Part shown: positions 3,767 to 6,532 of the stretch, piece after piece
How positions within the stretch are numbered: the first letter of the stretch is position 1
Layout: the number at the start of each line of letters is the position of its first letter
Assembly (NCBI RefSeq): GCF_001989615.1
Contig: NZ_CP019067.1
Span: 2,728,001-2,792,000, forward strand
DNA length: 64,000 nt
Source of the DNA: Halorientalis sp. IM1011
GTDB lineage: Archaea > Halobacteriota > Halobacteria > Halobacteriales > Haloarculaceae
Reading direction: 5' to 3'
Position numbers and translations under genes: made by a program
Notes under the pieces: generated by a model
Databases searched by the model: none
Seen by the model: the letters and a program-made list of their open reading frames with translations, nothing else
Told to the model about the DNA's origin: nothing

Positions 3767-4198
3767 ATGACCGTCGTCAGCGTGTCGATGCCGGACGAAC
3801 TGCTCGAACGTATCGACGAGTTCGCGGACGGCCACGGCTACACCGGCCGCAGCGAAGTCGTCAGGGAGGCCGCGCGCAACCTGCTGGGGGAGTTCGAGGA
3901 CCGCCGCCTCGAAGATCGGGAACTGATGGGTGTGGTCACCGTGCTATTCAATTACGAGACCACGAGCGTCGAGGAGCGGATGATGCACCTGCGCCACCAG
4001 CACGAGGAACTGGTCCAGTCGAACGTCCACAACCACGTCGGTGACGCCTACTGCATGGAACTGTTCATCCTCGAGGGCTCACTGGAAGATATCTCGACCT
4101 TCGTGGGCAAGATCCGGGCGACGAAGGACACGCTGACGGTGGATTACTCGGTGATTCCGGTCGACGGGTTGAACGGAGCGCTGGGCGGCGGTAGTTGA
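3767..4198 (+). CDS. nikR: NikR-type ribbon-helix-helix metal-responsive regulator
   Basis: The protein has 143 residues. Residues 1-45 form a ribbon-helix-helix DNA-binding domain ([17 protein letters not shown], then a helix ending near GEFED). The C-terminal ACT-like metal domain keeps the full nickel-site spacing of the family: H77, H88, H90 and C96 match the 11-2-6 spacing of E. coli H76, H87, H89 and C95. It is therefore likely a metal-sensing repressor. The target is not obvious, because no nickel transporter lies in the window and the convergent neighbour is a membrane protein. The function may be general metal control rather than nickel uptake. Confidence 0.88.
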
Positions 4199-4200
4199 GA

Positions 4201-4938
4201 TCAGTCGGCCGGTTCGGGGTCGGTGGGGTCGCCGCCGGTGTCACCGGTTAGTTCGTCGACGAGGCCGTCGGCTGCGTCCCCGATGTCGACGTTCGTGACG
4301 TTGGCGAAGAGGAAGCCGGCGAAGCCGGCGCGGATCAGGAGGTTCATGTACTGCGTGAGGACGTTGGAGACGAACGTGTCGAACAGTCCGAACAGCGCGA
4401 GAACCGAGAACACGATGATCATCCCGACCAGGAACAGGAGGAGATTCCGGGACTTCCAGTGGAGGAGCCGCTGTTTGTCGGGCAGCGACTGTGCGACCGC
4501 CCAGATCCGGTTGCGGTAGAAGTAGATCAAAAAGATGTGGCCACCGATCAAAATTCCGAGCGCGAGCAACGCGACGACGCCGCCGCTGACGGTCGCGACG
4601 CTGAAGGACAGTCGCTGCAGGAGCGGAATCCCGACGGCGACGGCCAGCAGCTTGCGGGAGACGCCGGCGAGCAGTGCAGCGATTCCCCAGAGGACGGAAT
4701 AGGCGACCAGATCGCTCACCACGGTCGGTATCGTGAGCTCGGTGCCGTTCACGACGAGAATCCCGACCCGTGCCGCATCGAGGAACATCCCGACAGCGGA
4801 GACGGCGATGACCGCCAGAACCAGCTGACAGAGACGGCGGTACTGCTCGGGAATCCGCCGGAGCCAGAGGAACAGCGCCGCGAAGACGACGGTGTAGAGG
4901 ACGCCGGTCACCGCGTAGACGGTCGTCGGACTAATCAT
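4201..4938 (-). CDS. Microbial-rhodopsin-like seven-helix protein lacking the retinal lysine
   Basis: The 245-residue protein has seven predicted membrane helices and a short acidic tail. By eye its last three helices align with sensory rhodopsin II: RNL starts helix F (residues 164-166), and helix G reads [11 protein letters not shown]. In that alignment the Schiff-base lysine (K205 in N. pharaonis SRII) is R203, the counterion aspartate D201 is N199, and the transducer-contact tyrosine Y199 is kept as Y197. In helix C the usual Arg and Asp (R72, D75) become T72 and S75. Covalent retinal binding is therefore not expected. The ATG at 4938 is chosen over GTG codons at 4944 and 4947, and it overlaps the transducer stop by eight bases, as in htr-sop pairs. 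Family assignment is from visual alignment only. Confidence 0.7.
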
Positions 4939-6532
4939 CGTCACCACCCGCGTTGGCGGCGGTGGCGTTCATTCCGCTCATCCCGTGATCGGTCGCGTCG
5001 TCTACGTCGCGGGTCTCGAACGTCGCCAGTCGCCGCTGGAGATCCGCGGTCCGGCTGGCGAGTTCGTCCGCGCGTCCACGCACGTCTTGCATCGTCTCTG
5101 CGGTATCGTCGGCGGTGTCCGCCAGCGAGTGGGATCGCTCGGCCACGTCGGCGGCCGCCGACCGCACGTCGCCGACGGTCGCGGCGACCTCTTCGGTGGC
5201 GGCCGCGCCGTCCTCGGTGGCGCGGGCGATCTCGCTCATCGCGGTGTCCACGTCGGTGACGGTCTCGATCAACTCCTCGATGGTCTCACCGGTCTCGGTG
5301 ACGGTGCCGACGCTCTCGCCGATCCGGTCGCGCGTGGCCGCCATCTCGTCGGTGACGGTGTCCACGTCGGCCCGGGCGGCCGTGACGATCTCCTCGATCT
5401 CGTCGATGGAGGTCTGGGTCTCCTCGGCCAGCTGTTTGACCTCGTTCGCGACGACGGCGAACCCGTCGCCGGCCTCGCCGGAGCGGGCGGCCTCGATGTT
5501 GGCGTTCAGCGCGAGGATGTTCGTCTGCTCGGCGATCTCGTCGATGAGGTCCGTCGTCGTCGCCACCTCGTCCATCCGGTCGTCGAGTTCACCCACCTGC
5601 TCGCCAAGCCGCTGGACGGCGTCCTCGACCTCGCGGATGGCGTCGACGGCCTGCTGGGCGCGCTCGACGCCGGTCTCGCCGACTTCGCTCGCGTCCGAGG
5701 CCTGCTGTGAGACCTCGTCGGTCGTCGAGGCGACCTCCTCGATCGACGCCGAGAGGTCGTTGGCCTCGCTGACGGCCGCGTCCAGCCGTTCGGCCTGATC
5801 GCCGATGTCCTCTGCGAGCTCGCGGATGTCCGTCGCGAGCCTGGCGTTGAGGTCCTCGACCGTCGCCGCGTCGTCGGCCACCGCCTCGCTAGCCGTCTGG
5901 ACCTCGCCCGCGAACGACTGTATCTCCTCGACGGTCACCGACAGCCCGTCCGCCATCTCCTCGTACGCCACGAGGATGCGCTCTATGGCTTCGATGTCGG
6001 CGTCCTCGTCGAGCTGGCGGGTGAAGTTGCCGTCGGCGGCCGCAGTCATCGCGTCGCCGATGTCGTCGGCCCGGTCGAGCAACGTCTCGGTCATCTCCTC
6101 AGCCTCCTGTTTCGCCTGTTCGGCCTCTTGGCGAGCCTGCTCGGCCTCTTGGCGGGCCTGCTCGGAGTCGTCGAACGCGGAGTCCAGCGACAGCCGCATG
6201 TCGTCGAGCGTGGCCGCCAGTTCGCCGAACTCGTCGGGGCGGTCGGATTCGGGTGTCACGTCGAGGTCGCCGTCCTCGATGGACTCGGCGACCGCCGTCA
6301 ACTGACGGAGTTCGACGCCGACGTTCCCGCCGAGGACGAGCCCGAGGAGGCCGAGATGCAGTATGACCACGAACAGTGTCCCGGCCAGTGCCGGAACTCC
6401 AGCCCCGGTAGTCGCGGCGTGGACGGTGAAGATGCCGCCCAACACGAGCGTTGCGACCAGGGTCGTCGCCAGCGATACACCGATGCGCTGGCTGTACCGC
6501 GACGCGATACGTTCGGTAAGCGATTCGGACAT
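4931..6532 (-). CDS. Htr-like methyl-accepting transducer with two membrane helices
   Basis: Starting at the ATG at 6532 the protein has 533 residues, close to HtrII of N. pharaonis. Two helices (about 18-39 and 47-69) are joined by a very short outer loop, so there is no extracellular ligand domain, as in transducers that dock with sensory rhodopsins. A HAMP region follows (about 70-120), then a heptad-repeat coiled coil (QARQEAE units, residues 125-145) and a second HAMP-like segment. The signalling hairpin has the conserved tip [19 protein letters not shown] at about 332-350. An in-frame ATG at 6592 is possible; 6532 is preferred because a purine-rich AGAGGA precedes it. The gene overlaps the opsin-like gene downstream and probably uses it as its sensor subunit. 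Confidence 0.9.

Follow-up and report, generated by a model that had tools for sequence, protein, structure and literature searches.

The closest described relatives of the locus analysed here are the haloarchaeal "opsin-related proteins" (ORPs), 48 of which were reported by Becker et al. in 2016 (PMC4915679). In ORP group A, the Schiff-base lysine is changed to arginine, the retinal pocket is lost, a tyrosine is kept and a HAMP/MCP gene lies adjacent, while group B carries hydrophobic residues at the lysine site (PMC4915679). Eight of nine tested ORPs were transcribed, and two purified ORPs, belonging to groups A and B, formed no pigment with retinal and gave no 480-580 nm band; the proteins were hypothesised to act as a non-light taxis receptor (PMC4915679). 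Eight species have ORPs but lack canonical opsins, crtY and brp (PMC4915679). Two other systems offer a comparison: the sensory rhodopsin II-transducer pair (SRII-HtrII) of N. pharaonis and the fungal opsin-related proteins, which share the rhodopsin fold without the lysine but have no transducer partner and represent separate losses elsewhere in the tree (PMC4915679). No paper later than the 2016 description that names an ORP stimulus was found in the open-access literature.

The window (the whole 64,000-nucleotide stretch of the Halorientalis sp. IM1011 genome that was analysed) contains a pair of genes of this kind on its minus strand, with the transducer gene immediately 5' of the orp gene (Table 1). 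Both open reading frames lie where the sequence-only reading had placed them, and the downstream gene overlaps the transducer stop, as it had noted for htr-sop pairs. A loop of about 10 residues joins the two hydrophobic helices of the transducer, whose TM2-HAMP part matched HtrII of N. pharaonis (NpHtrII) with an E value of 8.6e-19; this bore out the proposed short-loop two-helix Htr form. NpHtrII Asn74 is replaced by His in the window transducer, and relatives in which the motif could be located have either Asn or His at this site. An HtrII-type HAMP/MCP transducer gene, co-directional with and adjacent to the opsin gene, is the arrangement by which sensory rhodopsin-transducer pairs are recognised. 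The window pair resembles N. pharaonis SRII-HtrII in the fold of the opsin subunit, the upstream overlapping transducer gene, the Tyr199 contact and the short-loop two-helix transducer with HAMP. A gene for a NikR-like regulator (RHH and NikR_C, E 5e-21) is located at 3767-4198 (+) of the window, convergent with the orp gene.

Table 1. Features of the orp-htr gene pair (window coordinates) and loci assigned to ORP clade C.
Feature	Position or locus	Strand	Evidence
orp gene, opsin-related protein clade (group) A, seven-helix, 245 aa	4201..4938	-	ORF, SRII profile match, AlphaFold, Foldseek, tree
htr gene, HtrII-like transducer, 533 aa, two TM + HAMP + MCP signalling domain	4931..6532	-	Pfam and NpHtrII alignment
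8-nt overlap between the transducer stop codon (TAG) and the orp start codon (ATG), ATGATTAG	4931..4938	-	sequence
Arg203 codon CGC, SRII Lys205 (Schiff base) position	4330..4332	-	alignment
Asn199 codon, SRII Asp201 (BR Asp212) position	4342..4344	-	alignment
Tyr197 codon, SRII Tyr199 (transducer contact) position	4348..4350	-	alignment
Asp76 codon, helix C, SRII Trp76 position; candidate salt-bridge partner of Arg203	4711..4713	-	alignment
Transducer TM1, residues about 17-38	6419..6484	-	sequence hydrophobicity; compared with L003, L007
Transducer TM2, residues about 48-70	6323..6391	-	alignment to NpHtrII
Transducer His59 codon, NpHtrII Asn74 position	6356-6358	-	alignment to NpHtrII
HAMP domain, transducer residues 75-116	6185..6310	-	Pfam PF00672, E 2e-10
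MCP signalling domain, transducer residues 291-457	5162..5662	-	Pfam PF00015 (MCPsignal), E 5.6e-38
Clade C loci	L131, L116, L130, L120, L126, L140, L137, L136, L138, L118		
Clade C loci, continued	L125, L147, L043, L042, L046, L028, L029, L148, L122		

Searches of Pfam, NCBIfam and PDB with the single 245-aa sequence gave no match, and the scan of genome contigs with the single orp protein returned one relative only (L003). Profile methods were therefore needed, and the lack of a single-sequence match is probably also the reason why orp-type genes can be missed in annotation. When a profile built exclusively from 51 lysine-less relatives was searched against the PDB, SRII chains ranked first (E 3.4e-21), profile-profile comparison with canonical lysine-bearing opsins gave a probability of 99.6% (E 1.9e-24), and an iterated profile started from the window protein and run over the fetched loci drew in canonical opsins. 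PF01036 was matched by 51 of the 94 members of set A1, which includes one canonical SRII, and a paralogue from the same genome with 24% identity to the orp protein passed the Bac_rhodopsin cut-off. AlphaFold modelling without templates, with one SRII sequence in the input alignment, predicted seven helices and a B-C hairpin with a pLDDT of 93.5, and the top Foldseek matches of this model were SRII and SRII/HtrII structures (1h2s, 3qap; TM-score up to 0.9 by target). The window protein is a member of the microbial-rhodopsin superfamily (PF01036) with SRII as the closest solved relative, and the family search and structure prediction that had been proposed as a check both led to this result. A chance resemblance of some other membrane protein to opsins, a reading which the empty single-sequence searches could favour, has a probability close to nil, as the profile, profile-profile and fold comparisons all point to opsins; an unrelated membrane protein was ruled out on these grounds. 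The PDB chain 9wxr_A, described as "Rhodopsin,Chemotaxis protein" (370 aa), matched the ORP profile as well as the window transducer, and this structure of a rhodopsin-transducer fusion could serve as a template for the complex.

The residues were compared in a multiple alignment with SRII numbering anchored on a sequence that agrees with the solved N. pharaonis protein at every residue. In this numbering, positions 199, 201 and 205 of the window protein are Tyr, Asn and Arg, positions 72, 75 and 76 are Thr, Ser and Asp, and pocket sites 171, 174 and 178 are Val, Ile and Ser. The helix G Schiff-base lysine is missing, with Arg203 at the place of SRII K205, as had been read from the sequence by eye. 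Six residues invariant in 81 lysine-bearing sequences (W76, T80, W171, Y174, P175 and W178) are all lost, and the aromatic retinal pocket W76/W171/Y174/W178 is changed to D/V/I/S. Unlike SRII, to which it is about 17-19% identical, the window protein has no Lys205, Arg72, Asp75 or Asp201 and no retinal pocket. The loss of Lys and counterion might indicate a sensory rhodopsin that is decaying or carries an isolated mutation, but Arg203 is invariant in 51 relatives of several families, reading frame and operon remain intact and the ORPs group together on a well-supported side of the tree described below, which makes such an origin highly improbable. Isolated mutation was ruled out by the orthologues, in which Arg is invariant and no lysine was seen at the R203 position.

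Tyr197, like Arg203, was invariant among all 51 aligned clade A sequences, and the SRII Tyr199 position was Tyr in 104 of 104 ORPs vs 22 of 81 lysine-bearing opsins, in agreement with the claim that the transducer-contact tyrosine is kept. Two other claims of the sequence-only reading stood in part. Asn199 does align with the counterion Asp (SRII D201), but the position is not conserved, being D, G, S, A or N in orthologues. Helix C was said to lack Arg/Asp, and Arg72 and Asp75 are indeed replaced by Thr and Ser, but D76 follows one residue on and is typical of orthologues (Asp in 46 of 53 clade A sequences). Within clade A, the former-pocket residues Arg203, Asp76 and Tyr80 show strong conservation. 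Among ORPs with Arg at 205, 64 of 65 have an acid at 75 or 76, vs 3 of 39 other ORPs, a difference reflecting only 2-3 independent changes. The alignment suggests that a buried ion pair of Arg203 (helix G) and Asp76 (helix C) may replace the Schiff base-counterion pair.

The features of published group A recur in the window pair: Lys205-to-Arg, Trp76-to-Asp, loss of Y174, W178 and the pocket, retention of Tyr199 (Y197) and Asp189 (D187) and an adjacent HAMP/MCP gene (PMC4915679). At sites 108, 127, 174 and 178 the window protein has Gln, Leu, Ile and Ser, whereas group A has mostly Met, Thr/Ser, Leu and Ala (PMC4915679); clade A as sampled here was mixed at these sites in the multiple alignment. 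The window protein belongs to a different lineage, its nearest relative, from Halorientalis persicus (L003) and congeners, being 60-61% identical. Judged by these features, the window pair fits group A and is most likely an added member of this already described group. The novelty implied by the sequence-only reading did not hold, since lysine-less haloarchaeal opsins beside HAMP/MCP transducers, including Lys-to-Arg cases, had been published in 2016 (PMC4915679).

Of the 392 genomes of the order, 111 contained relatives at E 0.001 or better; lysine-bearing sensory opsins were among the weakest of these matches. In a tree from which three long-branched rows, L196 among them, were left out, one branch with 100/99 support split the lysine-less from the lysine-bearing sequences. 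Clade A, with Arg and Asp76 (support 100/100), includes the window protein and N. pharaonis copies; clade B has Leu/Phe/Met and others at the lysine site with Gly75 and Tyr76 (100/99), and clade C has Arg/His/Thr/Val at the lysine site with Arg72 and Tyr76 (97/87). The L196 opsin (L196:1417-2193 (+), same genus) has Met for Lys, keeps Arg72 and Trp76 and was placed in the first tree on a long branch among lysine-bearing opsins, representing a separate lysine loss.

The transducer gene was directly upstream in 49 of 52 clade A relatives, with an overlap of 8 nt as in the window in 35 of the 52 and of 4 nt in 10. Short-loop transducers characterise clade A and most of clade B. CheA was present in 49 of 50 clade A genomes vs 251 of 342 other genomes. 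Two clade A ORPs were carried by one genome (G122; L024/L039, L040) in which no match to Brp/Blh or to the CheA dimerisation domain was found. The strict gene pairing with overlap and the invariant contact-site Tyr could also be expected if the opsin subunit itself sensed nothing and served to assemble or tune the transducer, with the transducer sensing, e.g., cytoplasmic or membrane signals; many group B members have no adjacent transducer, so roles may vary. Such an accessory role is nevertheless considered unlikely, as the strong conservation of Arg203, Asp76 and Tyr80 would be needless for a pure scaffold.

The window genome, which is 99.99% complete, gave no match for a canonical opsin, Brp/Blh (PF15461) or lycopene cyclase (TIGR03462), whereas PF15461 was found in 7 of 7 congeners searched, all seven with strong Bac_rhodopsin matches. 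Retinal use by the window organism is unlikely, and the chromophore-free sensor put forward in the sequence-only reading stayed the most likely interpretation. The genome is a further case of ORPs without canonical opsins and retinal genes. Brp/Blh was missing from seven clade A genomes of four families (the window genome and six more). In raw counts uncorrected for kinship, clade A was nonetheless present in 43 of 228 genomes with Brp/Blh vs 7 of 164 without, and, with the same reservation, in 43 of 194 vs 6 of 106 when only CheA-bearing genomes were counted. This enrichment runs against complete retinal independence, which does not predict it; shared habitat may possibly account for the association. 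The co-occurrence beyond expectation and the SRII fold could be taken to mean that the window ORP still senses light by means of retinal or some other chromophore bound non-covalently. This is regarded as improbable: every aromatic pocket residue is replaced, the window genome and the other six clade A genomes are without the genes named above and Brp/Blh, respectively, and published ORPs supplied with retinal showed no absorption band (PMC4915679).

A second lysine-less opsin is encoded outside the window in the same genome (L035:5877-6629 (-); G000:C1 about 2143876-2144628). It has His at the Schiff-base position (YLDLFSHVALAG), matched PF01036 with 41.5 bits and falls in clade C; the gene directly downstream encodes an MCP of 741 aa, about 215-240 residues of which are extracellular. 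Members of clade C (Table 1) resemble the window ORP in being lysine-less, in the adjacent MCP transducer and in their side of the tree, but differ in having Arg72 and Tyr76 and Arg/His/Thr/Val at 205. A large extracellular domain (about 230-260 residues) distinguishes their transducers from that of the window pair; the Pfam scan detected no named domain in it. In some clade C members, those bearing His, the opsin gene precedes the transducer gene. The text of the 2016 paper describes neither clade C nor a group bearing His, nor does it mention extracellular domains in transducers (PMC4915679).

Taken together, the SRII profile and fold match, the loss of the pocket, the conservation of Tyr, the pairing with a transducer and the co-occurrence with CheA, along with the lack of retinal genes in the organism's own genome and the pigment-free published ORPs (PMC4915679), make it probable that the group A ORP and its two-helix transducer form a retinal-free complex that resembles a chemoreceptor and follows the sensory rhodopsin-Htr plan. 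In such a complex, the ORP would lie next to the transducer in the membrane, and Arg203 and Asp76 would form a charge pair substituting for that of the protonated Schiff base and Asp75. A ligand or a change in ions or voltage disturbing this buried charge pair may trigger the output, with a conformational change presumably passing through ORP helices F/G and Tyr197 to TM2 and HAMP of the transducer. From HAMP the signal would act on CheA activity and hence on swimming; signalling to CheA is suggested by the kept transducer contact, the strict operon and the HtrII-like partner.

The window genome offers a clean case, as its only two opsin-fold proteins are both lysine-less and both encoded beside MCP transducers. 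With no match for the retinal pathway or a canonical opsin in the genome, a taxis phenotype of a deletion would not be attributable to light sensing by a canonical rhodopsin. More tentatively, and with somewhat less than even confidence, ORPs may make up a wide class of seven-helix chemoreceptor subunits that work without retinal, comprising at least three clades, with clade C undescribed so far; in this class, a pair of an acid (helix C) and Arg (helix G) would replace the Schiff base switch; the window organism, with two pairs and no retinal system, would then rely on ORPs for a non-light stimulus. A defined ORP stimulus would show the rhodopsin fold to be a general receptor, like the GPCR fold.
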